A DNA stretch of 64,000 nt from Faecalibacterium prausnitzii (GTDB taxonomy: Bacteria; Bacillota; Clostridia; Oscillospirales; Ruminococcaceae): positions 62,001 through 126,000 of the forward strand of contig NZ_PXUP01000009.1 of NCBI RefSeq assembly GCF_003324185.1, given 5' to 3'. Positions 7,204 to 25,597 of this stretch are shown here, piece after piece. The notes beneath the pieces are model-generated. The model did no database searches, was not told the DNA's origin, and was given only the letters and a program-made list of their open reading frames with translations. The translations under genes were made by a program, and so were the position numbers. Position 1 is the stretch's first letter, and each line of letters starts with the position of its first letter.

Positions 7204-7350
7204 AAGGGGGTTACCCCCTCAGGCGCCCTCCGGCGCCAGCTCCCCCAAGGGGGCGCCTTATGGCTATACCATAAACTTTCCCTCCACAGCAAAAGCCGTC
7301 CCCTTGGGGAAGGTGGCACGGCGAAAGCCGTGACGGAAGGGGTGATCCCC
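7204..7350. repeat. GGGG-ended composite repeat (MITE-like)
   Basis: About 150 bp bounded by GGGGGTTACCCCCTC at the left and, inverted, GGGGGGATCACCCCTTC at the right. Internal hairpins include GGCGCC-CTCC-GGCGCC and GGCACGGCGAAAGCCGTG. Related fragments lie at 3265-3335 and 33826-33875. It has no coding capacity and resembles small non-autonomous elements common in gut Clostridia. Confidence 0.6.
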
Positions 7351-7352
7351 CC

Positions 7353-7459
7353 GTGAAAAAGTAGTTCCGAAACGCCCGCAGGCGTTTCGGAACTACCAAT
7401 AAAAATATTCTTTCCGCTTTTTATGCGCAAAGCAGCGCGGCTCGCATTTAAAATCGTCC
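7353..7459 (+). repeat. Dispersed hairpin element, copy 1
   Basis: Starts with GTGAAAA, then a 16-bp perfect hairpin (7361-7376 with 7381-7396, loop CGCA), an AT-rich block with TTTCCGC, a short GCGC-type inverted repeat and a terminal AAATCGTCC. The same order is found in six other intergenic places in this window. The end is 4 bp from the spoVT stop codon, and the hairpin may also terminate that gene. Confidence 0.75.
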
Positions 7460-7463
7460 CGCC

Positions 7464-8006
7464 TTATTCCTCCATCTGCTTTGCCAGAAAGGCCGCTGCC
7501 ACTGCCACCGCCTTGCACTGGGCGTCCTCCGGGCAGGCGGTGCGGTCCTCGGTCAACAGACCCACCGCGCCGGTCACGTCCCCGCCCGCCAGCACCGGCG
7601 CGGCGCATAGCAGCACCCGGGGTGCGCCCTCGCAGGGCAGCAGGGTCTTTTCCGGGCTGCCCGGGCTCTGGTAGGGCTTGCGGGCTTCCATCAGCTTTTC
7701 CAGCGGCTGGCTGATGCTGCGGTCGGTCAGCTCCCGCCGCCCGCTGCCGCTGACTGCCAGAATGCGGTCCCTGTCGCACACAAAGGCGGTCAGTGCAAAC
7801 TGGCGGCTGAGCACCTCTGCCAGCTGGGCGGCAAGGGTGTTCACCTCGCCCATGGGCGAGTACTTTTTAAAGATCACTTCCCCGTCGCCGGTGGTAAAGA
7901 TCTCCAGCGGGTCGCCCCGCCGGATGCGCTGGGTGCGGCGGATCTCCTTGGGGATCACCACCCTGCCAAGCTCGTCGATGCGGCGCACGATACCGGTTGC
8001 TTTCAT
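7464..8006 (-). CDS. spoVT: SpoVT/AbrB-family transcription regulator with GAF-like domain
   Basis: A 180-residue protein, the length of Bacillus SpoVT. The N-terminal swapped-hairpin DNA-binding domain reads 'GIVRRIDELGRVVIPKEI', almost the family consensus, and the rest is GAF-like. ATG 8006 is preceded by AAGGAGGG. In spore formers SpoVT adjusts late sigma-G genes; Faecalibacterium is not known to sporulate, so here it may serve another purpose or be a remnant that is still intact. It is monocistronic, divergent from the next gene. Confidence 0.88.
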   Translation of the reverse strand: MKATGIVRRIDELGRVVIPKEIRRTQRIRRGDPLEIFTTGDGEVIFKKYSPMGEVNTLAAQLAEVLSRQFALTAFVCDRDRILAVSGSGRRELTDRSISQPLEKLMEARKPYQSPGSPEKTLLPCEGAPRVLLCAAPVLAGGDVTGAVGLLTEDRTACPEDAQCKAVAVAAAFLAKQMEE

Positions 8007-8162
8007 TATTTTGCCCTCCTTGCGGTTTCCTTTGTATGTAGTATCTGTCAGCGGCGGCAAATTATACCGGCAGCACATTTTTTGCTTTGCCCGCCGCATT
8101 GCGTTCCGGGCGGGGTTCTGCTACAATAAATAGGAATAAACCCAAAGAAAGCAGGTGTCCGC

Positions 8163-9401
8163 ATGGCACACATCCTTATTCTGGGCGGCGGTGCCGCCGG
8201 ACTGGCCGCTGCGCTGGCGGCTGCACAGGCCGCGCCCGCTGCCCGCGTCACGGTGCTGGAGCGCAACCCCAAGGTGGGCAAAAAGCTGCTGGCTACCGGC
8301 AACGGCCGCTGCAATCTGGACAACACCGCCATTGCGCCGGAAAAATACTTCACCGCCGACCCCGCCGCACTGCGCCCCCTGCTGGCGGCGGTGGATGCCG
8401 CCGCGCCGCTGACGTGGTTTGAGCAGCTGGGGCTGTACACCCGCACCGATGAAGCCGGGCGGGTGTATCCCTATTCCAATCAGGCGGCAGACGTGCTGGC
8501 GCTGCTGGAGCTGCATTTGCAGCGGCACACCGTACAGCTGCGCACCGGCTGCACGGTAAGCACCCTGCGGCAGAGCAAAGGCGGCTACGCGGTGCAGTTT
8601 ACCACCGCCGAGGGCGGCACCGAAAGCCTGCGGGCAGATGCCGTTATCTGCGCCATGGGCGGCGCCGCCGGGCCGCAGTTCGGCACGGACGGCTTCGGCA
8701 CCCGCTTTGCCGCCGACTGCGGCGGGCAGATGCGCCCGCTTTACCCCTGCCTGACCGCCCTGCAATGCGCAAAGCCGAACAAGAGCCTTGCGGGCATCCG
8801 CGCCAAAGCCGCCGCCCGCCTGCTGGACGGCGACCGGGTATTGGCTGAAGAGATGGGCGAAGTACAGTTTACCGACTACGGGCTTTCCGGCATCTGCATC
8901 ATGCAGCTGTCCGGCCTGCTTGCCCCCGGGCGCAGGCTGAGAGACCCTGTCGTGGAACTTGACCTGTTCCCGGAGCTGAGCGAGATAGACCTGACCCGTC
9001 TGCTTGCCCGGCACGCCATCCAAACCGCATCCGACACCCTCGCCGGGTTCTGGACAGGGCTGTTGAACGTCAAGCTGGGTTACGCCCTCTGGGAAGCTGC
9101 CAATATGCCCAACAACCGCTCGGTCAAGCAGATGCAGCCCCTTGCCCACACCGCCAAGCACTGGCGGTTCGAGGGGCTTGCCCCCTGCGGCTGGCGGCAG
9201 GCGCAGACCACCGGCGGCGGGCTTGCCCTGACCGAGGTGGAACCGACCTTCCAGTTCAAGGGCTGTCCGGGGCTGTACTTCGTGGGTGAAACGTTGGACT
9301 GCGCCGGAAGCTGCGGCGGCTTCAACCTGCACTGGGCGTTCGGCAGCGGCCTTGCCGCCGGGCGGGACGCCGCAAAGCACCTTTGCAGCCGAAAACGGTA
9401 A
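8163..9401 (+). CDS. HI0933/YhiN-family FAD-dependent oxidoreductase
   Basis: A 412-residue flavoprotein. The N-terminal dinucleotide fold has 'ILGGGAAGLAAALAAA', followed by the family mark 'GKKLLATGNGRCNL'. The C-terminus has the second FAD contact, 'LYFVGETLDCAGSCGGF', and an N-L-x-W-A-x-x-S/G-type end. Members include BaiN-type enzymes proposed to act on bile-acid intermediates, but most are uncharacterised, so the substrate is open. The ribosome site is AAGCAGGTG. It stands alone between spoVT and a convergent transporter gene. Confidence 0.88.
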   Translation: MAHILILGGGAAGLAAALAAAQAAPAARVTVLERNPKVGKKLLATGNGRCNLDNTAIAPEKYFTADPAALRPLLAAVDAAAPLTWFEQLGLYTRTDEAGRVYPYSNQAADVLALLELHLQRHTVQLRTGCTVSTLRQSKGGYAVQFTTAEGGTESLRADAVICAMGGAAGPQFGTDGFGTRFAADCGGQMRPLYPCLTALQCAKPNKSLAGIRAKAAARLLDGDRVLAEEMGEVQFTDYGLSGICIMQLSGLLAPGRRLRDPVVELDLFPELSEIDLTRLLARHAIQTASDTLAGFWTGLLNVKLGYALWEAANMPNNRSVKQMQPLAHTAKHWRFEGLAPCGWRQAQTTGGGLALTEVEPTFQFKGCPGLYFVGETLDCAGSCGGFNLHWAFGSGLAAGRDAAKHLCSRKR

Positions 9402-9408
9402 CAAAAAA

Positions 9409-9452
9409 GGGATCCTGAAGCGCCAGCTGGCGCTTCAGGATCCCTTTTTATT
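9409..9452. terminator. Bidirectional terminator between convergent genes
   Basis: A perfect 36-bp palindrome (9409-9444) is flanked by A6 on the left and T5AT5 on the right, so it can stop transcription from both sides. Confidence 0.92.
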
Positions 9453-9453
9453 T

Positions 9454-10101
9454 TTACTCGCCCTTGGAAAGCAGCTTTGCACGCTCCAGTGCGGGGCGCA
9501 GTGCCAGATACAGCACCACGGCGCAGGCAGTGGAAGCCACACTGTTCACAAAGGTGACGCCGCCGGCGATCTTGGTCAGCGCCTGTGCCACGGTGTACTC
9601 CTGCCCAAAGATGTACACGTTGCGGAAGTAGCCAAGGAAGGGGTCGGTGAACACGTTCAGCAGCAGACCGGAACCCGCAGAGACGATCACCTTGACCAGA
9701 TACCCGGCGCTGTGACGATCCTGATCCCGCAGCTTGAACACCTTATGTGCCACGGCACCGCAGGTGATGCCGATGATGAACTTGAGCACGAAGGTGGTAA
9801 TAGCGTAGCCCGGGTCACCGGCAAGGATATCCGCCAGCGCCAGACCGATGGCACCCGCCAGACCGCCGGATACACCGTCCAGCAGCAGCGCCGTCAAGGC
9901 AGTAAAGGTGTTGCCCAGATGGAACGAAGAACCGCCGTAGAAGGGGATGCGGAAGAACAGGTAGGCCACAAGGCTCAGTGCAGCCATCACACCGGTAAGC
10001 GCCAGCTCGTGCACCGTAAAGCGGCGCTTGTACAGCACACTGAAAAAAAGGATCAGGATAACGACGACTGCCAGCAGCAGCCACATTGCAGTAGTAGACA
10101 T
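9454..10101 (-). CDS. ECF transporter S component (possibly vitamin B6)
   Basis: About 215 residues with five or six membrane segments. After an N-terminal helix comes 'HELALTGVMAALSLVAYL', then 'FHLGNTFTALTALLLDG' and 'GLAGAIGLALADIL', a typical substrate-binding subunit of an energy-coupling-factor transporter that shares a genome-wide ATPase/T module. ATG 10101 has GGAGG 9 nt upstream. It is divergent from a MocR/PdxR-type regulator and shares an operator-like region with it; such regulators often control pyridoxal salvage, so B6 is a reasonable but unproven substrate. Confidence 0.8.
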   Translation of the reverse strand: MSTTAMWLLLAVVVILILFFSVLYKRRFTVHELALTGVMAALSLVAYLFFRIPFYGGSSFHLGNTFTALTALLLDGVSGGLAGAIGLALADILAGDPGYAITTFVLKFIIGITCGAVAHKVFKLRDQDRHSAGYLVKVIVSAGSGLLLNVFTDPFLGYFRNVYIFGQEYTVAQALTKIAGGVTFVNSVASTACAVVLYLALRPALERAKLLSKGE

Positions 10102-10143
10102 GATACTTTCCCTCCAATCGCGCCGATAACCCCACAAAACCAC

Positions 10144-10237
10144 TTGACATTTGGGTGTCCGGCGGGTATGCTCCTATTATACGCAAAACTGACCCCATGA
10201 AAATACCCAGAACAAAGTTTTTTTATGGGGTCAGTTT
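10144..10237. promoter_or_regulatory. Divergent promoters and 13-bp inverted repeat between ECF-S and mocR genes
   Basis: Plus strand: TTGACA (10144-10149), 17 bp, TATGCT (10167-10172), reading toward mocR. Minus strand: TATAAT (10176-10181), reading toward the ECF gene. Downstream of the mocR start and upstream of the ECF -10 lies AAACTGACCCCAT (10186-10198), repeated inverted as ATGGGGTCAGTTT (10225-10237). The two arms are a good candidate for the MocR-type regulator's binding site, placed to affect both promoters. Confidence 0.7.
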
Positions 10238-10267
10238 GACGCAATACCCAGATGGGAGGGACATTCT

Positions 10268-11710
10268 ATGGTACATCTGACCACGGCACTGGACCCGGCT
10301 TCGGCGGTGCCGCTGTACGAGCAGCTCTACCGCAGCCTTGCCGCCGAGATGCGGGCGGGCACCCTGACAGCGGGCACCCGGATGCCCGGCAAACGGCGGC
10401 TGGCGGCAGAGCTGTCGGTCTCGGTGAACACGGTGGACACTGCCTACCAGATGCTGGCAGCCGAGGGCTACCTGACCGCCCGGGAGCGCAGCGGCTTCAC
10501 GGTGCAGGAGTATCTTGCCCTGCCGCAGGGGGTGCAGCCGCCCGCCGCGCCCTCTGCGCCGGTGGCAGCGCCCCCCGCCGAAACCACCCCGCCGGTGCAG
10601 TTCGATTTATCTACCCGGGGCGTGGACCCGGGGCTGTTCCCCTTCCGCACATGGGCACGGCTGCAAAAGGAACTGCTCTATTCCGCGCCGGAGCTGCTCA
10701 CCCCCGGGGATGCCCGGGGCGACGCTGCTCTGCGGCAGGCGCTGGCAGAGTATCTGGCCGAGTACCGGGGCGTGCAGTGCGACCCGGAGCAGCTGGTGGT
10801 GGGTGCAGGGCTGGAATATCTTCTAGGGCTGCTGGCACCGCTGCTGCCCGGCCCTGCCGCCGTGGAGACTCCCGGCTACCCCCGCGCCCGGCAGGTGCTG
10901 GAAAACAACGGCGTGCCCTGCCGCTGCCTGCCGGTGGACGCGGACGGCCTGTCCCTGACGGCTCTTTCCGCCAGCGATGCGGCGGTGTGCTACGTCACTC
11001 CCAGCCACCAGTTCCCCACCGGGGTCACCATGCCCGCCGGACGCCGGGCCGAGCTGCTGCACTGGGCAGCCCGCGCCCCGGGGCGGCGGTACATCATTGA
11101 GGACGACTACGACTCCGAGTTCCGCTTTGATACCCGCCCGCTGCCCAGCTTGCAGGGCATGGCGGGCGCAGACGGCCCGGTGGTGTACCTGTCCACCTGC
11201 TCCCGCAGCCTTGCCCCGGGCATCCGCATTGCCTATATGGTACTGCCCCGGCAGCTGCTGGGCGCGTGGCAGGCCAAGTACCGGCTGTACTCCGGCACGG
11301 TGGGACGGTTTGAGCAGCAGACGCTGGCGCGCTTTATCACCGGGGGCTATTTCACCCGGCACTTAGCGCGGGAACGCACCGCCTACAAAGCCCGCCGGGA
11401 TGCGCTGGTGGCGGCACTGCGCACCTCCTTTGCACCGGAAGAGCTGACCCTTGCGGGGCTGCACACCGGTCTGCACCTGCTGGCACAGCTGAAAGACCCG
11501 CCGCCGGACGCCGCCCTGCGGGCTGCTGCCCGGCAGTACGGGGTGCGCTGTTCCCTGCTGAGCGACTACGACCTGACCGGCACGGCGCACTCTGCCGCCG
11601 GGACGCTGGTGCTGGGTTATGGCTCACTGCCGGACGCGGACTGCGCCGCCGCCGGGGAGAGGTTGAAAAAGCTCTGCACCGCCGCCCGGGAGGCATCGGA
11701 CACCGTATAG
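10268..11710 (+). CDS. MocR/PdxR-family regulator (GntR winged helix fused to aminotransferase-like domain)
   Basis: 480 residues. The N-terminal GntR winged helix (about 5-75) includes 'GTRMPGKRRLAAELSVS' and 'NTVDTAYQMLAAEGYL'. The larger part is a fold-type I aminotransferase domain with the PLP-contact pattern 'IIEDDYDSEFRFD' and 'YLSTCSRSLAPGIRIAY', where the lysine normally seen after the T-x-S is absent in this stretch (S-R-S instead of S-K-x); this should be checked against the family. Such proteins sense PLP and control B6 genes or GABA/amino-acid uptake. It overlaps the next, convergent gene by 94 bp. Confidence 0.85.
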   Translation: MVHLTTALDPASAVPLYEQLYRSLAAEMRAGTLTAGTRMPGKRRLAAELSVSVNTVDTAYQMLAAEGYLTARERSGFTVQEYLALPQGVQPPAAPSAPVAAPPAETTPPVQFDLSTRGVDPGLFPFRTWARLQKELLYSAPELLTPGDARGDAALRQALAEYLAEYRGVQCDPEQLVVGAGLEYLLGLLAPLLPGPAAVETPGYPRARQVLENNGVPCRCLPVDADGLSLTALSASDAAVCYVTPSHQFPTGVTMPAGRRAELLHWAARAPGRRYIIEDDYDSEFRFDTRPLPSLQGMAGADGPVVYLSTCSRSLAPGIRIAYMVLPRQLLGAWQAKYRLYSGTVGRFEQQTLARFITGGYFTRHLARERTAYKARRDALVAALRTSFAPEELTLAGLHTGLHLLAQLKDPPPDAALRAAARQYGVRCSLLSDYDLTGTAHSAAGTLVLGYGSLPDADCAAAGERLKKLCTAAREASDTV

Positions 11711-12540
11711 TGTCCGCCTGCCCAGTCCCCGGGCAGGGCGTCAGCGGTGATATCCACCGGCTCGGCGCTGGTGGCTAAAAATTCCAGCGTGCGTTCCAGT
11801 GTAGCAAGGTCTACGGCGGTCAGGCTGGTCAGCAGACTGCTGCTCACCTCCCGCAGACCCTGCGGCAGGGTGGTGGGCAGCAGCTCCAGCGCCTGCCGGA
11901 AAAACGCATCCCACACCGCCGCCCGGGCGGCGGCGCTGCGCCGGGGCGAAAGAACAGTGTCGGCATCCAGCGCCGCTAAAAAGCTGTGGGCATCGGCGGC
12001 GGAGATGCCCTGCACCCCGGTGCCTTTGCCGTACCGCGCCAGCTGCTCCGGGGTGAGCGCCCCGGTAAAACCCACCCGCACTGCGCCGTACCGCGCCGCA
12101 AGCTTTGTCAGCACCGCCGGGGCGATGGCAAGATAATCGGTATCCTCCGGCAGGGCGAACACCTCGCCCAGCGCCTCCCGGCAGCGGGCGGGTCCTGCGG
12201 CGGCGTAACAGTCCGCAAGAGGGACGTTCTTGCCCCCAAAGGGCACTTCCAGCGCGGCGGGCACCGCCAGCAGATGGATACAGTTCTGCCCGGCGTTCAG
12301 GTAAGCCAGCACAAAGCCCGGGGTCTCGTCTGCCACGCACAGCAGCACGGTGCACTGGTCGGCGGCTTTGGGCAGACGGATGGGCACCCCGCTTTGGCTT
12401 TTTGCAGCCTGCCGCAGACTGCTGCGCAGCTGGGCGCGGCTGAGCAGCACTGTGCCGCCCACCAGCGGCAGCAACACCAGCAGGGCGGCGCACAGCGCCG
12501 CCCAGAAGGGACGCCAGCCGCTGCGTTTTGCGTGTTTCAT
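11617..12540 (-). CDS. LytR-CpsA-Psr (LCP)-like membrane protein, degenerate
   Basis: 307 residues with a short basic N-terminus and one membrane helix (about 9-34), so a cytoplasmic-in, outside-out topology. The outer part follows the LCP layout: 'VLLCVADETPGFVLAYL', 'LLAVPAALEVPF' where LCP proteins have S-I-P-R-D, 'LADCYAAAGPARCREAL' for the A-Y-x-G-G block, and 'KLAARYGAVRVGF'. The arginine that contacts pyrophosphate in true LCP ligases appears missing, so attachment of wall polymers is doubtful. ATG 12540 has AAAGGAGG. Its last 31 codons lie antisense to the end of mocR. Confidence 0.6.
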   Translation of the reverse strand: MKHAKRSGWRPFWAALCAALLVLLPLVGGTVLLSRAQLRSSLRQAAKSQSGVPIRLPKAADQCTVLLCVADETPGFVLAYLNAGQNCIHLLAVPAALEVPFGGKNVPLADCYAAAGPARCREALGEVFALPEDTDYLAIAPAVLTKLAARYGAVRVGFTGALTPEQLARYGKGTGVQGISAADAHSFLAALDADTVLSPRRSAAARAAVWDAFFRQALELLPTTLPQGLREVSSSLLTSLTAVDLATLERTLEFLATSAEPVDITADALPGDWAGGHYTVSDASRAAVQSFFNLSPAAAQSASGSEP

Positions 12541-12613
12541 GGCTCTGCCTCCTTTTTGTGCATAAAGCATAGCCCACCGGGCGACCCTTTATGCAGAAAG
12601 GCAGGGATGCTGT

Positions 12614-12733
12614 ATGGATAAAGCAGAAAACCCCAACGAAAAAGACCGCGAGGAACAGGAGGACTTCTGGCTGACGCTGGAACCCCTTCCCGCCCCAGAC
12701 CCCGAAAAGCCCTCCGCACCGCATGAGGACTAA
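12614..12733 (+). CDS. Possible small acidic protein (39 aa)
   Basis: ATG 12614 to TAA 12731-12733 encodes 39 residues rich in E, D and P with a central 'EEQEDFWLTLEPLP'. It reads away from the LCP-like gene. The ribosome site is weak and there is no recognised homologue, so it may be chance. The strongly acidic composition and lack of rare codons are the only arguments for it. Confidence 0.3.
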   Translation: MDKAENPNEKDREEQEDFWLTLEPLPAPDPEKPSAPHED

Positions 12734-12788
12734 GGCTGCTGCATAAAATGCGGTAAAGGGGTGAGCCGTTTCTCGTTACGCCCCTTCT

Positions 12789-12896
12789 GTGAAAATGTGT
12801 TTGGAGCGGCCCGCAGGCCGCGACAAACACGAAATTATAAATAATTTTTCCGCTGAATATGCCCAGAGTGTAACGGAGGGCATTTCAAATCGTACC
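12789..12896 (+). repeat. Dispersed hairpin element, copy 2
   Basis: GTGAAAA, then a hairpin GTGTTTG...CAAACAC (12797-12830) with an inner GCGGCC-CGCA-GGCCGC stem, an AT-rich block with TTTTTCCGCTGAATATG, a GCCC...GGGC inverted repeat, and AAATCGTACC. It aligns end to end with the copy at 25858-25963 read on the minus strand. It lies 20 bp before the symporter start codon, so it may be transcribed in that gene's leader. Confidence 0.8.
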
Positions 12897-12916
12897 ACCA
12901 CAAAGGAGGCCACGAG

Positions 12917-14356
12917 ATGCCAGAGCGGTTCATGCGGGGAGTCGAGGCCGTGAACGGCATCGTGTGGGGGCCGATGGGGCTGGGGCTGCTCTTCGGCACC
13001 GGGCTGCTGCTGACGGTGCGCACCGGGGGCTTCCAGCTGCGGCGGTGGGGCTACTGGATGCGGCACACCCTCGGTGCCATCCTGACCGACCAGAGCGTCA
13101 CCGCCCATACCGCCCGCGAGGAGCAGGCCATCAGCCAGTTCCAAAGCCTGTGCACCGCGCTGGCGTCCACCATCGGCACCGGCAACCTTGTGGGGGTGGC
13201 AACAGCCATCCTTTCCGGCGGGGCGGGGGCGGTGTTCTGGATGTGGGTCATGGCGCTGCTGGGCATGATGACCAGCTACGCCGAGAATGTGCTGGGCATC
13301 TACTACCGCCGCAAAGACCCGGCGGGCGGCTGGCGCGGCGGGCCGATGTACTACCTGCGGGACGGCCTTGGCGGCAAGCCGGGGCGGGTGCTGGCGGTGC
13401 TGTTTGCTGCGTTCTGCGCGCTGGCAAGCTTTGGCATCGGCAACCTGAGCCAGCTCAATTCCATCGCGGGCAACCTGAAAGCGGCGTTTGGCGTGCCGGA
13501 GGCCGTTACCGGCGCAGTGCTGGCGGCAGTGTCGGCGGTGATTTTGCTGGGCGGGCTGAAGCGTGTGGCTGCGGTGGCAGAAAGGCTTGTCCCCGCCATG
13601 GCGCTGCTGTACATCGTGGGTGCGCTCACCGTAGTGGGGGTGCATATCACCGCCGTCCCGGCGGCGCTTGCCGCCATCCTGAAAGGCGCGTTCGGGCTGC
13701 GGGCCGCCGGTGGGGGCATCGTAGGCTACGGCCTGTCCCGGGCGGTCACTTGGGGCTTCAAGCGGGGTGCTTTTTCCAACGAAGCGGGGCTTGGCTCCTC
13801 GGTGATGGTGCACGCGGCTTCCAACGTAAAGGAGCCGGTGCAGCAGGGCATGTGGGGCATTTTTGAGGTGTTTGCAGACACCATGGTGGTGTGCACCCTG
13901 ACGGCGCTGGTGGTGCTGACCTCCGGCTTTGTGGAGCCGGACACCGGGCGCATTGCCGCCAGGGCGGCGGGCAGTGCACTGGTGGGGCAGGCCTTTGACG
14001 CCGTGTTCGGCACGCTGGGGTCCAAGCTCATTGCGGTGTGCATCCTGCTGTTCGCCTATTCCACCGTGCTGGGCTGGAGCTGCTACGGCTGCAAGGCTGT
14101 GGAGTATCTCTTCGGCGCAGGGGCAGGGGCATTTTACCGGGTGCTGTTCGTAGCGCTGATGCCGGTGGGCGCGGTGATACGGCTGGACCTTGCATGGACG
14201 CTTTCCGACACCTTCAACGGCCTGATGATGCTGCCGAACCTCATCGGCGTGGTGGCGCTGTCCGGTACGGTGGTGAAGATCACCCAAAACTACCTTGCCC
14301 GCAAGCTGCACGGCAGCGCCGCGCCGCCGCTGTTGTCTGCGGGTGAGACAATTTAA
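12917..14356 (+). CDS. Sodium:alanine symporter (AGCS family)
   Basis: A 479-residue inner-membrane symporter with about 11 helices. Family signatures are visible: 'GNLVGVATAILSGGAGAVFWMW', split here as GNLVGVATAI and GGAGAVFWMWV, then 'YYLRDGLGGK' and 'FSNEAGLGSSVM'. It should take up alanine or glycine with Na+. The start has AAAGGAGG 7 nt upstream. A MATE exporter follows in the same direction but with its own promoter. Confidence 0.93.
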   Translation: MPERFMRGVEAVNGIVWGPMGLGLLFGTGLLLTVRTGGFQLRRWGYWMRHTLGAILTDQSVTAHTAREEQAISQFQSLCTALASTIGTGNLVGVATAILSGGAGAVFWMWVMALLGMMTSYAENVLGIYYRRKDPAGGWRGGPMYYLRDGLGGKPGRVLAVLFAAFCALASFGIGNLSQLNSIAGNLKAAFGVPEAVTGAVLAAVSAVILLGGLKRVAAVAERLVPAMALLYIVGALTVVGVHITAVPAALAAILKGAFGLRAAGGGIVGYGLSRAVTWGFKRGAFSNEAGLGSSVMVHAASNVKEPVQQGMWGIFEVFADTMVVCTLTALVVLTSGFVEPDTGRIAARAAGSALVGQAFDAVFGTLGSKLIAVCILLFAYSTVLGWSCYGCKAVEYLFGAGAGAFYRVLFVALMPVGAVIRLDLAWTLSDTFNGLMMLPNLIGVVALSGTVVKITQNYLARKLHGSAAPPLLSAGETI

Positions 14357-15881: not shown

Positions 15882-17066
15882 TTACCATGCAAAGCCCACG
15901 GAGTCCATGTCGATCTTCTTTTCCATCAGCCCCAGACGGCTCTCGATGAAGTTGACAGCCATATCCGGCCACTGGGCGATCTGGGTATAGTAATCCACAT
16001 AGCCCTTGGTGCCAGTGCCCAGACCCACACCGTGGGGTGCATCAGGTGCCAGATAGAAGCTGAAATCTTTGAAGATATTCGCGCACTCCGGCAGAGCGGG
16101 CAGCATCATCGCACTCAGGCCGTCTTTCTGACCCACAACACCAAAGACCGGAGGCAGGTTGGGGTTCTTCGTGAAGTTCAGACCGGTGACGAACAGTCCG
16201 TAGATGGGGATCGCCACGTTCAGGTCAGCGCTCTCATGGTCCACAGCATCGCAGACGTAGCTGGGGTAGACCTTATCCGGGGTATTCGTAGTGCCGAACT
16301 GGTCGGCCACCACCTGCATCACATTCATGCCGCCAGCAGAGAAGCCCACCGCGATCATGATATCGGTCTTGCCGATGTGTTTTTCAGAGGCGTTGTGGCG
16401 GATGTAGCGGATAGCACGGGCCAGATCCAGCTGCTGATCCACAGCGGCATAAGGGTTGACGCGGCGCTGCAGCACAAAGGCGTTGTAGCCGTTCTTGTTG
16501 AAGAACTCGGCCACCGGGTAGCCTTCCACCACGTTGTTGCGGTGGGTGCTGCCGCCGCCTGCAATAATGATCACGTTGCCCTTCACCTTGCCCTGATCTC
16601 GCAACAGGTACGGGTTCAGGAAGGGACGGAAGCCCTCGTTATCGTAGCAATTTTCCCAGTTGGTGGGCAGCGGAGATTCCACGGCCATCTGATCTCCCCA
16701 AATTTCCCAAACGGTGCTCTTGGGGTCCTTGATCTGGCGCAGCGCCTTGCGGGCATTGGTCAGAGCAACACACATCTCGTAGTGAGAAGCATTGATGCCG
16801 GGCACAGCTGCACCGTCCACCTTCTCGTACTGAGCGCGGGACAGCTTGTGGAACAGCACATAGAACTTGTCAAAATCGCCCCGGAAAGCAGCCGGATAAA
16901 AGGCTACCTCGCGGGAGAGGCGGAGTTCCTCTGCCACCATGGCCTGCACCTCAGCATCGGTGTGCACGCCAGCGTTTTCAGCAAAGGATGCTGGCGCCAT
17001 GCCAGCCACTGCGCCCATGGTCACGGCAGAAGCGGCGGAAAGCTTCATAAAGTCTCTTCTGTTCAT
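15882..17066 (-). CDS. Exported alpha/beta hydrolase with Tat-type signal
   Basis: 394 residues. The N-terminus NRRDFMKLSAASAVTMGAV has the twin-arginine R-R-x-F motif, a hydrophobic core and an A-x-A-like cut site near residue 29. The mature part is an alpha/beta hydrolase: oxyanion-side 'IIIAGGGSTHRN', nucleophile elbow GFSAGG and a likely catalytic histidine in PDAPHGVG. It belongs with esterase/lipase-type (BD-FAE-like) enzymes; the substrate is unknown. Of three consecutive ATG codons I choose the third, 8 nt after AAGGAG. A Tat substrate is unusual for this lineage. Confidence 0.75.
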   Translation of the reverse strand: MNRRDFMKLSAASAVTMGAVAGMAPASFAENAGVHTDAEVQAMVAEELRLSREVAFYPAAFRGDFDKFYVLFHKLSRAQYEKVDGAAVPGINASHYEMCVALTNARKALRQIKDPKSTVWEIWGDQMAVESPLPTNWENCYDNEGFRPFLNPYLLRDQGKVKGNVIIIAGGGSTHRNNVVEGYPVAEFFNKNGYNAFVLQRRVNPYAAVDQQLDLARAIRYIRHNASEKHIGKTDIMIAVGFSAGGMNVMQVVADQFGTTNTPDKVYPSYVCDAVDHESADLNVAIPIYGLFVTGLNFTKNPNLPPVFGVVGQKDGLSAMMLPALPECANIFKDFSFYLAPDAPHGVGLGTGTKGYVDYYTQIAQWPDMAVNFIESRLGLMEKKIDMDSVGFAW

Positions 17067-17305
17067 CATCATTTCTCCTTTTAAATGCAGACGGCTCATT
17101 TGTGCGGAGCAAAGCCGCCCAAAGCTGTGCAGCAAACGCCCTGCTGCCGGGCCCGATAGACATTCCAGTTGTATCATGCCATCGAAATCTACACAAATCG
17201 TACCACAATATAACGCACTTGTAAATAGATTTTATTGTTTTTGTGCTAAATTGATATATTAGTATGCCAGTTCTTGTGAAAATCAACAAGCATGAGAATG
17301 GGCAT

Positions 17306-21459: not shown

Positions 21460-22560
21460 TCAGCGGAACGCTGCGGTGTCGTGCACCACAATGTGCTGCA
21501 CACCGGCGTCGGCAGCGGCCTGCTCCAGCGCAGCGCGGCTGTCCGCATCCAGTGCGGTGCTGCTGGTGACCAGCAGGTTTTCCATGCCAAGGGACGTGCC
21601 GGTGGTGCCAAGGGCATCGGTAGCGGCGGTGCACAGTGCGTCCGGGTAGCTGACCCACAGGGTCACGCTGCCTGCAAAGCGGGTCTGCCATGCGGCGATA
21701 TCCGCCGTCAGCTGGGCGGCGCGTCCCTCCCGGCTCTTGCCGCCGGAGGCACCGAAGTCCTGCTTGCGGGTGATGATATTGGGGAACTGCACCCCGGTAA
21801 GCACCACCTGCTCGTAGCCCATGCCCTGCACCTCCTCAATGAGGTCGCCGACATACTGCACCGCGCTTGCGGCAAAGGGGTTCATCCATGCCTTGCCGCC
21901 CTTGGCTGCGCTGACGTTGTCCAGCCAGAGGCTGTTGCCATCGTAGTGCACGCCCATGCTGCGGTCGGTGTACACCGACACCGGGTCGGTAAAGGCGGCA
22001 AGCTGTGCCGCCGGGATAATGCCCTCCTCCCGCAGGATGGCGGCGATATTGGCCGCATCCACCGGGTTTTCGGTGATGCTCTGGGCAGCGGCTGCCACCC
22101 CGGAAGCGTAGTACACCGTGCCAGCGGCGTCCTTCAGGGTGACAAGGGCGTAGTCTGCGCCCTGCTGCTTCAGCTGCCGGACGGCGGTGCGGATGGCGGC
22201 TTCATCGGTCAGGGTGGTCACGTCCAGCTCTGCCCAGCTGCCGCCGGTAATGGCCTTGCCGTCCAGCGGCTTTTCCTCCTCCGGCTCAGACGCTGCCTGC
22301 GAAGCAGCAGCGCTGCTTGCCGCCGCAGAGGAGGCGGCTGCCTCGGCGCGGGAAGCGCTTTCGGCCTCCAGATCCCGATCCTTGACCACGGTATACCAAG
22401 TGTGGGTGGCCCAATCCAGCACATGGGGTGCGGCAAACCATGCTGCTGCCAGCACTGCCACTACCAGCACCGCAATGCCGATGCCGCGCTTGACGCGCAT
22501 TTCACGGCTGTAAAAGCTGCGGTGATAATGCTTGACCTTCTGACGTTTATACTTAGCCAT
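21460..22560 (-). CDS. Membrane-anchored putative glycoside hydrolase (DUF4015-like)
   Basis: 366 residues. A basic N-terminus and one membrane helix (about 24-48) are followed by an Ala/Ser/Glu spacer of about 35 residues and an extracytoplasmic domain. That domain follows the DUF4015 barrel layout: 'DYALVTLKDAAGTVYYAS', 'AAQLAAFTDPVSVY', 'WLDNVSAAKGGKAWMNPF', and a 'VQFPN' in place of the usual R-F-P strand end. DUF4015 is placed among clan-level glycosidase barrels but lacks a defined substrate. It is 24 bp after the rnfA-like gene, which ties a surface protein to that complex. Confidence 0.65.
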   Translation of the reverse strand: MAKYKRQKVKHYHRSFYSREMRVKRGIGIAVLVVAVLAAAWFAAPHVLDWATHTWYTVVKDRDLEAESASRAEAAASSAAASSAAASQAASEPEEEKPLDGKAITGGSWAELDVTTLTDEAAIRTAVRQLKQQGADYALVTLKDAAGTVYYASGVAAAAQSITENPVDAANIAAILREEGIIPAAQLAAFTDPVSVYTDRSMGVHYDGNSLWLDNVSAAKGGKAWMNPFAASAVQYVGDLIEEVQGMGYEQVVLTGVQFPNIITRKQDFGASGGKSREGRAAQLTADIAAWQTRFAGSVTLWVSYPDALCTAATDALGTTGTSLGMENLLVTSSTALDADSRAALEQAAADAGVQHIVVHDTAAFR

Positions 22561-22584: not shown

Positions 22585-23196
22585 TTACAGGATAACGGAA
22601 TGTCCGGTAAAGCCATAGATCGCCAGCGCCAGCACGCCGATATACACCAGCGTGATGGGCAGGCCGCGGAATGCTTTGGGGATCGCTTTGCTGCGCAGGC
22701 GGTGGCGCGCCTCGGTGACCAGCAGCACCGCCAGCACATAGCCAAGGCCGCTGCCAAGGCCAAAGCCAAGGCTCTGGCCAAGGGTAAAGGACTGGGTGCG
22801 CTCCACCAGCACCGTGCCCAGCACGCCGCTGTTCAGCGCGGCCAGCGGCACGATGCGCAGCAGCTGGGCGCGGCGGGGCAGGCTGCGCAGCAGCCACAGC
22901 ACCAGATGCTCCGCCAGACACACCACGGCAATGCTGGCAATATACACCAGCGGGCGCAGCTGGGCGCGGTTATCCAGCGGGGCAATGAACCGCCCGGCAA
23001 GAAAAGCCACCGGCGCCACCAGCACCTGCGTGATGCACAGCATCATGCCGAACAAGGCGCTGCTGGTGCGGTCGTCCCCCACCAGCTGCACCATGCGGGA
23101 CACGCCCAGTGCACGGGTAAAGACAGCGTTCTGTGCAAAAATGGCCAGCAGTGCATAGCTGAAAAACACTGCCGAGCTGCTTACAACTTCCTTCAC
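22585..23196 (-). CDS. RnfA-like membrane protein lacking the cluster cysteines
   Basis: 203 residues, six helices, aligned over its length with RnfA/RsxA. Where RnfA has L-G-I/L-C-P-F, this protein has LGVSRM (Ser33); where RnfA has T-T-N-C-A-V-L-G it has AALNSGVLG (Ser123). Those two cysteines normally bind the intramembrane [2Fe-2S] cluster shared with RnfE. The GTG start at 23196 overlaps the rnfE-like stop (GTGA), preceded by AAGGAGGTG. In the family this subunit passes electrons across the membrane for Na+ or H+ pumping; here that role looks lost. Confidence 0.78.
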   Translation of the reverse strand: MKEVVSSSAVFFSYALLAIFAQNAVFTRALGVSRMVQLVGDDRTSSALFGMMLCITQVLVAPVAFLAGRFIAPLDNRAQLRPLVYIASIAVVCLAEHLVLWLLRSLPRRAQLLRIVPLAALNSGVLGTVLVERTQSFTLGQSLGFGLGSGLGYVLAVLLVTEARHRLRSKAIPKAFRGLPITLVYIGVLALAIYGFTGHSVIL

Positions 23197-23918
23197 GGTT
23201 CGCGGTCCACCTCCTTCTGGTAGTGCACGGTCAGGGTATCCCGTGCTTCCTTTTTCAGATATTCCTTGCGCTTTGCAGCCGCAGCGCGCCAGATGGCGCA
23301 CAGGATGCCCAGCACGATAAAGCCGCCCGCCGGCATCTTAGCCAGCGGCAGCAGCGCCCAGCGCCCCACCGGGGCACCGAACACGGTGCCAAGGCTGAGC
23401 CACTCGCGCACCACGCCCACCACGAGCAGCAGCAGCGCGTAGCCCACGGTGATGCGCACGCCCTTGGAAACGGCCTTGTGCACTGTCTCCTGCACGCGGC
23501 CGAAGCGGTAGGTCAGAAGCGGCTCCACCACCAGCATGGGCAGGTAGATGCCAAGGTTCAAAAGCCCGGTGCCAAACACGAAGTTCAAAATGGGATATGC
23601 CGCCAGGTACACCACAGCGGCGCTGGCTGCGTACAAAAGTGCGCGGGGCAGCAGCTTTTTTTGCAGCTGCTCCGGGGTAGGCTCCTCGTCCCGCAGGGGT
23701 ACAAGGCGGCTGAGCAGGCAGGCCAGCACGCGGGAGGGCACCAGCAGCAGCGTCACCGCCGCCGCCAGCATCAGGCCGTTCTGCCCGGTGGTAGCCACGA
23801 CCACCAGCGGTGCCAGACCCATGCCCTGCATGACCACCGGGTTATTCAGGAACACACGGTCATGATGGGCAAACTTTTCGGGGTCCTTTAAAATCAGTTC
23901 CGCAGTACGCTTTTTCAT
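23193..23918 (-). CDS. RnfE-like membrane protein lacking the cluster cysteines
   Basis: 241 residues and about six helices. RnfE features are recognisable: 'LNNPVVMQGMGLAP' (normally N-N-x-x-L-V-Q-L-L-G-L-C-P), LGIYLPMLVVEP (normally L-G-I-F-I-P-L-I-V-x-N-C), VVREWLSLGTVFG and 'PAGGFIVLGILCA'. Both cluster cysteines are replaced (Ala36, Pro133). A charged insertion (DEEPTPEQLQKK, about 77-88) and a charged C-terminal tail are extra. ATG overlaps the rnfD-like stop by 4 bp. It pairs with the RnfA-like protein, to which it is homologous with inverted topology. Confidence 0.76.
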   Translation of the reverse strand: MKKRTAELILKDPEKFAHHDRVFLNNPVVMQGMGLAPLVVVATTGQNGLMLAAAVTLLLVPSRVLACLLSRLVPLRDEEPTPEQLQKKLLPRALLYAASAAVVYLAAYPILNFVFGTGLLNLGIYLPMLVVEPLLTYRFGRVQETVHKAVSKGVRITVGYALLLLVVGVVREWLSLGTVFGAPVGRWALLPLAKMPAGGFIVLGILCAIWRAAAAKRKEYLKKEARDTLTVHYQKEVDREP

Positions 23919-24934
23919 TCCGCAGCCTCCTTTCGTTCGGACGGCAGACGGTGCAGCAGACGGTACAGCCGCTCCTCGGTGCGGTCAATGAGCGCGGACA
24001 CGCTGTTGACTGCCAGCAGTGCAAAGCAGACGCCGGTCTCGTACACGCCGAAATAGCGGAAGCCCATGGTGGCAGCACCCACTAGGGCGCCGTACAGGAT
24101 GCGTCCGAGCCGGTGATGGGCGCAGGTGTAGGGCTCGTTGAGCAGGAACACCGCACAGAACAGCACCGCACCGGTGTGCAGCTCGTCCCGGATGCCCTGC
24201 AGGCGGGGCAGCAGGCTGCTGAAGAGGGTGCTGTCCGCCAAACCCACCTGACGCGGGAAGAAGAAGGCGATGAGCCCGCAGGTGATGAGAAAGCTCGCTG
24301 ATGCGCCGATGTGCACGTCCTTCTGGGTCCACAGCACAAGGCCGCAGGCCAGAATGACCAGCGCCGCACCGGTGCCCATGGGGGCAGCAAACTCGCCCAG
24401 CACAACGGCGAGGGCGTTCAGGTTCAGGATGCCGCCGCTGCGCAGGGTATCCTCGATGGTGCTGCTCACCGGCACGGCAGAGGCGTTCCACAGGGGCAGC
24501 GGCGTATAGGGCTGCGGGTAGCGCACCACCTGCTCCGGCCACGATACCGCCGCCACGGCGTAGCCCACGGCAGCGGGGTTGAAGGGATAGCTGCCGTAGC
24601 CGCCAAAGACCTCCTTGCCGATGAGCACGCCCGCCAGCACTGCCACCACCAGCACATAGATGTCCACGGTGGCGGGCATGAGCAGGGCGATGATCAGGCT
24701 GAAACTCTCGTTGGAGAGATCTTTATTGGTGTACACCCGATGGCGCAGCAGCGCCACCAGACGGTCGCACAGGTTGCCGGTAAGCAGGGCGATGCCGCAC
24801 AGCAGCAGCGGACGCGCCCCATAGAAATAGCAGGCCATGCACAGCAGCGGCACACACAGCCAGAAAACGTGCTTATAGTACCGGCCGGTCTTTTGCAGCT
24901 GCCGCTCCTGCTCTTGGATCAAAGCTTCATCCAT
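23915..24934 (-). CDS. RnfD-like membrane protein without FMN-attachment motif
   Basis: 339 residues, eight to ten helices. 'YTNKDLSNESFSLIIALLMP' and FGGYGSYPFNPAAVGYA mark it as NqrB/RnfD family. Canonical RnfD carries FMN covalently on the Thr of an S-G-A-T motif; the corresponding loop here, around residues 145-175, reads NASAVPVSSTIEDTLRSGG, with no such motif. It starts 12 bp after rpe with AAGGAGG. There is no RnfC, RnfG or RnfB gene in the cluster. Role unknown; a membrane complex with the next two proteins is likely from the gene order. Confidence 0.78.
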   Translation of the reverse strand: MDEALIQEQERQLQKTGRYYKHVFWLCVPLLCMACYFYGARPLLLCGIALLTGNLCDRLVALLRHRVYTNKDLSNESFSLIIALLMPATVDIYVLVVAVLAGVLIGKEVFGGYGSYPFNPAAVGYAVAAVSWPEQVVRYPQPYTPLPLWNASAVPVSSTIEDTLRSGGILNLNALAVVLGEFAAPMGTGAALVILACGLVLWTQKDVHIGASASFLITCGLIAFFFPRQVGLADSTLFSSLLPRLQGIRDELHTGAVLFCAVFLLNEPYTCAHHRLGRILYGALVGAATMGFRYFGVYETGVCFALLAVNSVSALIDRTEERLYRLLHRLPSERKEAAE

Positions 24935-24946
24935 ATACGGGCCTCC

Positions 24947-25597
24947 TTACAGGCTGGCCAGTGCGCCCACAGCCGCAGCAGGGTCGGCGGCGCCGAACAC
25001 GGCACTGCCTGCCACCAGCACGTCGGCACCGGCTTCTACGCACAAGGGTGCGGTGGCGGCATCCACGCCGCCGTCCACCTCCAGCAGGTAGGAAAGGCCG
25101 CGTGCTTCCCGCTCTGCCTTGAGCCAGCGGAGCTTGTCCAGCGCCGAGGGCATGAACTTCTGCCCGCCGAAGCCGGGTTCCACGCTCATCACCAGCACCA
25201 GATCCAGCTGGTTCAGCCACGGGGCCAGCGCCTCGGCCGGGGTGCCGGGCTTAATGGTCAGACCCACCTTGCAGCCCAGCGCACGAACGGCATCAATGGT
25301 GGCCTGAATATCATCTTCGCACTCCAGATGGAAGTTATACAGGGTAGCACCAGCCTTGATAAAGGGCTCGGCGTATTGCAGCGGGTGGCTGATCATCAGA
25401 TGCACGTCATAAAAGGCATCCGGCAGCGCCTTGTGCAGGCTTTTGAGCACCGGCACACCAAAGCTGATGTTGGGCACAAAATGCCCGTCCATCACGTCAT
25501 AGTGCAGCATCTGTGCGCCGGCGTCCAACACCATGCGGCAGTCTGCACCCAGCTTGCCAAAATCAGCAGAAAGAATCGAAGGACTTACGATGGCCAT
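24947..25597 (-). CDS. rpe: Ribulose-phosphate 3-epimerase
   Basis: 216 residues, a TIM barrel of standard length. 'SPSILSADFGKLGADC', 'HYDVMDGHFVPNISFG' and 'MSVEPGFGGQKFMP' contain the metal-binding histidines and catalytic aspartates. It interconverts ribulose-5-phosphate and xylulose-5-phosphate. It is the first gene of the eight-gene operon; in many Firmicutes rpe follows rsgA, which is not the case here. The ribosome site is weak (GGAGCG about 12 nt away). Confidence 0.96.
   Translation of the reverse strand: MAIVSPSILSADFGKLGADCRMVLDAGAQMLHYDVMDGHFVPNISFGVPVLKSLHKALPDAFYDVHLMISHPLQYAEPFIKAGATLYNFHLECEDDIQATIDAVRALGCKVGLTIKPGTPAEALAPWLNQLDLVLVMSVEPGFGGQKFMPSALDKLRWLKAEREARGLSYLLEVDGGVDAATAPLCVEAGADVLVAGSAVFGAADPAAAVGALASL

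Follow-up and report, generated by a model that had tools for sequence, protein, structure and literature searches.

Rnf (RnfABCDGE; solved structures 9eri, 7zc6 and 8ahx) is the closest described relative of a locus in Faecalibacterium prausnitzii, a member of a genus that is a major human gut commensal, in which three overlapping genes encode RnfD-, RnfE- and RnfA-like membrane proteins from which the known covalent and cysteine-bound redox sites of Rnf have disappeared. The locus lies in a 64,000-nucleotide stretch of assembly GCF_003324185.1 (contig NZ_PXUP01000009.1, positions 62,001 to 126,000 of the forward strand), which we call the window and whose numbering is used throughout. The three proteins are named D', E' and A', the RnfC-like protein of relatives is named C', the L-, G-, g- and f-numbers are locus, genome, genus and family codes of our genome search set, and "the order" and "the class" are those of Faecalibacterium. 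The coupling of electron flow to ion movement in Rnf is debated, with RnfA and RnfE argued for against earlier RnfD/NqrB proposals in part of PMC11889175. The trio resembles Rnf in that D', E' and A' are homologous to RnfD, RnfE and RnfA and keep the same gene order, and differs from it in an operon without RnfB, RnfC and RnfG, in the loss of four cluster cysteines and of the threonine that binds flavin mononucleotide (FMN-Thr), and in missing the NCBIfam cut-offs. In Na+-NQR, NqrA is a relative of RnfC and offers a precedent for an Rnf-derived subunit that, following duplication and the loss of genes, persists as a structural part without cofactors (parts of PMC12174285 and PMC4014512), but there the membrane core retains its cofactors, whereas in the trio the core itself has lost them and no NqrF-like neighbour is present. 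Two-subunit Nqr/Rnf-like flavinylation systems share with the trio a partial Rnf set and an RnfD-like protein without the FMN-Thr, but pair a NAD-binding domain fused to the RnfD part with an RnfG-like flavoprotein (portions of PMC8238504 and PMC10979944); both are absent from the trio, which retains RnfA/E-like proteins. Among the titles and abstract openings listed in searches of open-licence PMC articles, we found no cysteine-less RnfA or RnfE and no link between rnf genes and DUF4015, the family of the protein encoded beside the trio. A protein set that descends from Rnf yet falls outside what defines Rnf may possibly carry out a categorically new function.

Our analysis indicates that the trio is very probably a redox-dead descendant of Rnf that is maintained under selection. 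Its genes and the sites at issue are as follows, with site positions read from alignments to the solved chains 9eri, 7zc6 and 8ahx and canonical residues numbered as in Acetobacterium woodii (A. woodii).

23915..24934, minus strand: D', RnfD-like membrane protein of 339 residues without the ATPL FMN-Thr motif (PF03116, 189.1 bits, cut-off 27.7)
23193..23918, minus strand: E', RnfE-like membrane protein of 241 residues, both cluster cysteines gone (PF02508, 83.0 bits, cut-off 23.8)
22585..23196, minus strand: A', RnfA-like membrane protein of 203 residues with a GTG start, both cluster cysteines gone (PF02508, 84.2 bits, cut-off 23.8)
23098..23100, minus strand: Ser33 of A', replacing the first cluster cysteine (A. 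woodii C25; chain alignment)
22828..22830, minus strand: Ser123 of A', replacing the second cluster cysteine (A. woodii C113; chain alignment); the adjoining Asn122 (A. woodii N112, Na+ site) is kept
23811..23813, minus strand: Ala36 of E', replacing the first cluster cysteine (A. woodii C25; chain alignment)
23520..23522, minus strand: Pro133 of E', replacing the second cluster cysteine (A. woodii C108; chain alignment)

These results bear out a sequence-only reading of the same DNA, which had recognised three overlapping RnfD/E/A-like genes, named these four replacements and noted the absence of a covalent-FMN motif (S-G-A-T) from D': the open reading frames lie where it had placed them with Pfam matches above cut-off, the replacements fall at the same positions when aligned to the solved chains, and the ATPL site of RnfD reads SAVPV in D'. 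More precisely, the FMN-Thr (A. woodii T156) aligns pairwise with the valine of SAVPV; a multiple alignment shifts a threonine (of SST) into the FMN column of D', yet that column holds glycine or alanine in 18 of 29 Faecalibacterium loci, and the AT-P context occurs in none of the alignment rows shown. The cysteines that the window proteins do possess (Cys54 and Cys93 in A', Cys67 and Cys207 in E') are all away from the canonical positions. Shifted cysteines or a shifted FMN motif, which that reading had named as grounds for abandoning its claim, were looked for in the alignments and not found: the window A' and E' have no compensating cysteine, and family-wide the only new cysteine column at a threshold of one third is A 79 (20/58). 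An annotation or start-site artefact was rejected, as the alignments span nearly the full length of the solved chains.

All three proteins score below their NCBIfam cut-offs (A' 77.3 against 229.3 for rnfA, D' 134.7 against 207.05 for rnfD, E' 51.8 against 213.4 for rnfE); the host's own canonical RnfC, D, E and A reach theirs. A search of the same genome for a full rnf operon, as the sequence-only reading had proposed, located a complete rnfCDGEAB with all motifs present on another contig (G000:C6, locus L005). The absence of rnfB, rnfC and rnfG from the trio operon, claimed in that reading, extends to its immediate surroundings, where the borders are the rpe and DUF4015 genes and the flanking genes scanned with Pfam are rpe, DUF4015 and DUF1015. 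Neither an NqrF-like gene nor an FMN_bind match occurs among these flanking genes, and D' matches PF03116 only. Taken together, the sequences support the view that the trio has lost rnfC, rnfG and rnfB along with the known covalent and cysteine-bound redox sites, and exists beside an intact Rnf of another lineage.

Loss of the redox sites is a property of a family rather than of one genome. A first scored set of 84 loci around RnfA-type matches was split by profile into 26 canonical and 58 non-canonical loci, the latter including ten loci from Faecalibacterium and some contig fragments, with A scored in 58, E in 56 and D in 55. Motif loss in this set is sharply two-state. All four cysteines and the FMN-Thr are present in 26/26 canonical loci, as is GGAxFP in the 24 of 24 that have rnfC in the stretch; the non-canonical loci retain A Cys25 in 0/58, A Cys113 in 20/58, E Cys25 in 1/55 (L171) and E Cys108 in 0/56. 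A threonine stands at the FMN column of D' in 8/55; five of these come from Faecalibacterium and lack the motif, and the FMN site still has a Thr-Pro pair in 3/55 (L139, L154, L155). The named loci found in a search with D' were all Faecalibacterium (6 loci). A' is present in 29 of 31 Faecalibacterium genomes, the remaining two being assemblies about 80% complete, and canonical RnfA in 30 of 31. Clusters related to the trio occur in several families of the order: at least 26 of 295 genomes sampled have an A'-type match of at least 159 bits, and at least 12 further genomes of the 295 carry lower-scoring redox-dead clusters whose sequence was read (G049, G066, G090, G096, G302, G323, G441, G443, G583, G601, G619 and G647). 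In the class sample, scores of at least 159 bits with the A' profile came from 6 of 341 genomes among the matches listed, all of the same order. Outside the order, the best 30 class matches contained 23 loci, of which 21 have both canonical A cysteine motifs and 2 the second only; divergent members there could have been missed, since some confirmed members score only 118–150 bits.

The history of the locus is recorded in its tree position and in its two bordering genes.

24947..25597, minus strand: rpe, ribulose-phosphate 3-epimerase, the upstream border gene (TIGR01163 above cut-off)
21460..22560, minus strand: DUF4015 glycosyl-hydrolase-like protein of 366 residues (PF13200, 49.3 bits, cut-off 27, covering model positions 7-171 of 313 only)

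Spacing is tight throughout, with 12 bp between rpe and D', overlaps of 4 bp at both D'/E' and E'/A', and 24 bp between A' and the DUF4015 gene. All 52 redox-dead rows form one clade (Shimodaira-Hasegawa-like approximate likelihood ratio test, SH-aLRT, 99.7) in a quick tree, with no bootstrap, of the joined D, E and A alignments with the trait columns left out. The sequence-only reading had proposed a tree to see whether a separate clade with conserved cysteine loss exists; it does, and the FMN-Thr site is lost in it as well. This clade is nested within another (SH-aLRT 99) that contains both DUF4015-linked and unlinked canonical Rnf of the order. The host's own canonical Rnf (L005) groups with that of relatives in a different clade (SH-aLRT 100). 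A recent duplication of the resident Rnf is thus not favoured by the tree; forcing the dead clade together with the clade of L005 was only marginally rejected (approximately unbiased test, AU, p 0.044).

The nearly constant co-occurrence of canonical RnfA (30/31) and A' (29/31) in Faecalibacterium could be taken to mean that homologous cores mix, the trio joining, replacing or competing with canonical Rnf subunits and working with RnfB, RnfC and RnfG of the other operon in order to regulate or uncouple it. We regard this as improbable: in the best tree the dead clade and the host's functional Rnf descend from separate Rnf lineages, and in three genomes of family f7 (G066, G090 and G441, all of genus g37, loci L212, L213 and L234) a redox-dead C-D-E-A-DUF4015 cluster is the sole RnfA-type match among those listed. 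Furthermore, of the RnfA residues said in part of PMC11889175 to contact the RnfB cluster, K32 and E158 are each kept in 0/29 Faecalibacterium loci and R154 in 12/29. The same genus code g37 also includes L220 (G456), with a complete canonical rnf-DUF4015 operon.

Synteny points to degradation in place. The rpe gene is present at 54 of the 58 non-canonical loci, and at the other four (L049, L055, L059, L081) the contig is short or the stretch stops close to the trio. A DUF4015 gene on the same strand is found at 50 of the 58, the usual order being rpe-(C')-D'-E'-A'-DUF4015. Among the matches listed, about 18 canonical RnfA places have a DUF4015 match within about 2.4 kb; 17 of these were read as sequence, of which 16 are canonical CDGEAB-DUF4015 operons by profile (L066, L070, L214, L215, L220-L223 and L225-L232; four cysteines and FMN-Thr checked present in 11 of the 16) and the 17th is L224. 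In L214 and L221, from one genus of f4, rpe precedes rnfC, so the place held by the trio elsewhere is taken by a full operon. Since the trio sits between the same two genes as full operons, the most fitting reading is that an ancestral rpe-rnf-DUF4015 operon was degraded in place and that the trio is what is left of it, which would be the simplest history. The term "orphan" applied to the trio by the sequence-only reading therefore needs amending: the trio would be such a degraded operon, with relatives that retain C' and a DUF4015 neighbour in 50/58 loci, and not an orphan fragment.

The order preserves graded intermediate forms of this conversion, and the series would run from CDGEAB through C'D'E'A' to D'E'A' in lineages that mostly hold another intact Rnf. 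C' precedes D' in 17 of the 58 non-canonical loci and was not found in 41, four of which end too early to tell; its presence changes at least four times on another tree of these clusters. Two CxxCxxCxxxC ([4Fe-4S]) motifs occur in 17/17 C' proteins and the flavin/NAD motif GGAxFP in 0/17, and in the one C' scanned with Pfam (L068) SLBB and ferredoxin domains were found and RnfC_N and the FMN-binding 51K domain were not. In six f24 loci (L064, L145, L151, L154, L168, L169) the order is rpe-C'-D'-E'-A' with other genes after A'. The clusters L212, L213 and L234 (f7) and L233 (f9) read C-D-E-A-DUF4015 with a C of 439-479 residues; in L212 the FMN-binding domain of C is still recognisable and GGAGFP is gone. 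L224 (G479, f3, positions 7250-13380) is a six-gene rnfCDGEAB-DUF4015 operon in which A is without both cluster cysteines (LGITPF, VNTAVL), E is without one and RnfC reads GGSARP for GGAGFP, with the two [4Fe-4S] motifs of C, the cysteine-rich motifs of B and the threonine sites of D and G all present. It branches with canonical members of its own family, a single origin with the dead clade has an AU p of 0.215, and it may be a second case in which this loss began independently. L231 and L232 are otherwise canonical rnf-DUF4015 operons with weak RnfG matches (46 and 59 bits). RnfG of L231 is without the SGAT flavinylation motif, and the RnfG flavin may also have been lost in some lineages.

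Retention of C' raises the question of residual electron transfer, in which D' would bind riboflavin, the [4Fe-4S] clusters of C' would feed it, and the Faecalibacterium trio would be a shrunken one-flavin device. RnfD also holds a non-covalent riboflavin, whose ligands in A. woodii are N123 and D249 (excerpt of PMC11889175), a second site that the sequence-only reading had overlooked.

24578..24580, minus strand: Asn119 of D', aligned with N123, a ligand of riboflavin in A. woodii RnfD; the residue is His in 17/29 Faecalibacterium loci (alignment)
24134..24136, minus strand: Glu267 of D', aligned with D249, a ligand of riboflavin in A. woodii RnfD; the residue is Glu in 29/29 Faecalibacterium loci (alignment)

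The riboflavin site of the window D' thus appears altered or weakened and not plainly destroyed. The two motifs in every C' lend this proposal some weight, as do the riboflavin positions, which are kept more in C'-bearing D' (N123 16/17, D249 14/17) than in D' without C' found (N 15/34, D 19/34, with L059, whose stretch stops just before D', entered as without C'), as if both had been lost jointly; a two-subunit Nqr/Rnf-like system also does without the FMN-Thr (part of PMC10979944). However, the association loses significance when common ancestry is taken into account, there being 2 independent pairs on well-supported branches, and in Faecalibacterium C' is gone, D249 is Glu in all 29 loci and N123 is His in 17 of them. 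With no [2Fe-2S] ligands, no xATPL site and no RnfG or RnfB in the operon, we consider residual electron transfer quite improbable.

Patterns of substitution likewise bear on whether the operon is a functional unit or a relic. The ratio of nonsynonymous to synonymous substitution rates (dN/dS, Nei-Gojobori) was calculated between Faecalibacterium pairs, three of them the closest and four more distant. The closest pairs gave 0.07-0.11 for D', 0.10-0.14 for E', 0.08-0.17 for A', 0.06-0.10 for the DUF4015 gene and 0.03-0.06 for rpe, and the more distant pairs 0.20-0.33 for the trio, 0.25-0.35 for DUF4015 and 0.13-0.17 for rpe; for A', the values of three pairs (n=238) also include about 35 codons that precede its probable start and lie within the overlap with E'. 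The trio genes are constrained by purifying selection, though evolving faster than rpe. Slow decay, the operon being a relic by chance undeleted so far, would be consistent with redox-dead branches longer than those of canonical Rnf, with stepwise gene loss, with the disappearance of rnf genes from the slot in three loci and with a short E' (134 residues) in L060. Against it stand dN/dS values that stay far under 1 for every gene in the pairs compared, the 4-bp overlaps in the window, the presence of A' in 29/31 genomes of the genus and of clusters in other families, and residues kept in canonical and redox-dead groups alike. Decay is accordingly very improbable, and the earlier inference from intact and compact frames that the genes are not decaying agrees with the 4-bp overlaps seen, with dN/dS of 0.07-0.33 and with the 29/31 congeneric genomes.

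Some residues of the membrane core survive the loss of cofactors. Those common to canonical and redox-dead groups are A N15, N112, P163 and G168 and D F114-G116 and P124. A N112, whose side chain lies at the A. woodii Na+ site, is kept in 56/58 non-canonical loci, E R67 in 46/55, E E115 in 29/56 and A E88 in almost none. We propose that D', E' and A' would still assemble as the Rnf membrane core, with E' and A' as its inverted-topology dimer. With the [2Fe-2S] cluster and FMN gone, this core could not be electron-driven in the known way. The A'/E' dimer would most likely let an ion or a small solute through by alternating access, either passively or driven by a gradient, or would relay a conformational change across the membrane to the DUF4015 domain outside. 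Transport or ion conduction, which the sequence-only reading had also raised, is our hypothesis for the activity of the trio, one that we place somewhat below an even chance.

The protein encoded next to A' is a candidate for the outer part of such an assembly. Ten basic residues are followed by one hydrophobic segment (about 26-44) and no other strong one, from which the DUF4015 domain is probably membrane-anchored and facing outside. The domain is probably extracellular and TIM-barrel-like: a profile built from the family retrieves the uncharacterised protein 4s1a (Cthe_0052) with an E value of 1.5e-33, and Foldseek with the AlphaFold model returns 4s1a first, followed by glycosidases such as GH191 and dispersins. 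As the model is moderate (mean predicted local distance difference test score, pLDDT, 64.4; predicted template modelling score, pTM, 0.60), the fold match is taken together with the profile match. The window protein resembles DUF4015 proteins such as Cthe_0052 by profile and best model match, and differs from Cthe_0052 in being N-terminally anchored, linked to an rnf remnant and altered at one position.

21796..21798, minus strand: Thr255 of the DUF4015 protein, at the Asp of FDYIRFP in 4s1a, where the window reads LTGVQFP (alignment)

This position is Asp in 7/9 reference proteins, which are linked to canonical rnf or come from loci without a redox-dead cluster. It is Asp in 5 and Glu in 2 of 11 C'-bearing loci, and Asp in 3 and Glu in 3 of 39 loci without C' found. 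The Asp is a probable catalytic residue, which would mean that catalysis has been lost in most trio-only loci and that the domain more likely binds than cuts envelope glycan; if so, the loss of redox chemistry in the core was accompanied by a loss of catalysis in its partner. The only paper found to name DUF4015 describes the domain fused to a YkyA domain, in part of a sporulation-gene study that also models polysaccharide deacetylases (PMC12700454), and this hints at an envelope-glycan role. The DUF4015 protein would take the place of the outer-face partner, which in canonical Rnf is RnfG, and its predicted topology is that given for RnfG in part of PMC11889175, one helix at the N-terminus followed by a domain outside.

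Evolutionary-rate co-variation is consistent with such a partnership. Beyond what is shared with rpe, rates over 39 loci correlate at 0.78 for E'-A', 0.58 for D'-E' and 0.46 for D'-A', and the DUF4015 gene correlates with D' at 0.60, E' at 0.66 and A' at 0.63, close to the value for D'-E' and above that for D'-A'; 0/999 permutations reached these values, and E'-A' is the strongest pair, as expected for a dimer. We lean slightly towards a functional partnership of the trio with the DUF4015 protein, an estimate lowered by the fact that only a minority of canonical rnf operons of the order adjoin DUF4015.

Overall, the best explanation at present, which we hold at about even strength, is that the trio, with the DUF4015 protein as its partner, forms a membrane complex for transport or coupling that works without redox chemistry. 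A more specific form, in which a cofactor-free core with alternating access would couple ion or solute movement to an anchored, catalytically silenced glycan-binding domain, is speculative and rather unlikely as a whole; such a machine would be comparable in principle to ion-channel/cell-wall-anchor machines. Several observations weigh against the explanation. The trio evolves faster than rpe, and within the genus A' evolves faster than canonical RnfA. With rpe as the only species-tree control, shared species history may have raised the partial correlations. Given Asn119 and Glu267, riboflavin in D' is possible. The Na+-path residues A E88, A K32 and E E115 are each found in 0/29 Faecalibacterium loci. 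This argues against simple Na+ transport along the path known from A. woodii, and if anything is carried, it may be something other than Na+. The AlphaFold model of D' is of low confidence (mean pLDDT 34.5, 7 close sequences). Among the matches listed, three g65 genomes of the same family have neither a DUF4015 match nor a third RnfA/E-type match, so the system can be lost.

Other such observations concern the partner, and they favour reading DUF4015 as a mere inherited chromosomal neighbour of a trio that works alone, for example as a small-solute or ion channel. No DUF4015 match was found at 8 of the 58 non-canonical loci, namely L051, L052 and the six f24 loci, which keep C'; C'D'E'A' thus stays where no DUF4015 is found. 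L216-L218 carry rpe and DUF4015 with a convergent small gene, which we take to be mecA, and no rnf between them, an arrangement showing that DUF4015 can persist here after the rnf genes have gone. DUF4015 is nearby in only 2/26 canonical loci of the first scored set, and most canonical rnf places of the order are without a nearby match, the 18 given above being out of about 117 canonical RnfA places among the matches listed. This reading is nevertheless unlikely in view of same-strand adjacency in 50/58 loci, the 24-bp spacing in the window, the 16 canonical operons that are also linked, the rate co-variation, and the parallel loss of the probable catalytic Asp.

Other partial Rnf sets were encountered in the class. 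From 20 class genomes with further RnfA-type matches, 15 loci were fetched, comprising 12 D-G-E-A clusters, 1 canonical operon and 2 CDG sets with altered E and A. The twelve clostridial D-G-E-A clusters (L177-L186, L188, L191) have all four cysteines in 11 cases, and L178 has Tyr for the first A cysteine. L180 (4823-8700) and L184 (4767-8687) have an NqrF-like gene directly after D-G-E-A and no rnfC match in the stretch, apparently an NQR-type operon without NqrA. L187 (3606-7570) and L190 (3530-7570), both of f83, combine canonical-type rnfC, D and G with divergent E and A; both cluster cysteines of A are gone, E retains one or both, and no same-strand rnfB is in the stretch read. By sequence, these two represent another type of partial Rnf, found beyond the order. 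Elsewhere in the window, positions 15882-17177 (minus strand) encode a protein with a sub-threshold match to a twin-arginine translocation (TAT) signal and a BD-FAE match (30.1 bits, cut-off 26.8).

In summary, our work suggests that in Faecalibacterium and many of its relatives an electron-driven ion pump has been rebuilt into a membrane machine with a different job. A natural series that sheds its cofactors set by set shows which residues are kept for reasons beyond electron transfer, and the trio offers a cofactor-free core for a direct test of ion conduction. For the annotation of these genomes, a match to RnfA, RnfD or RnfE is not by itself evidence of Rnf respiration.

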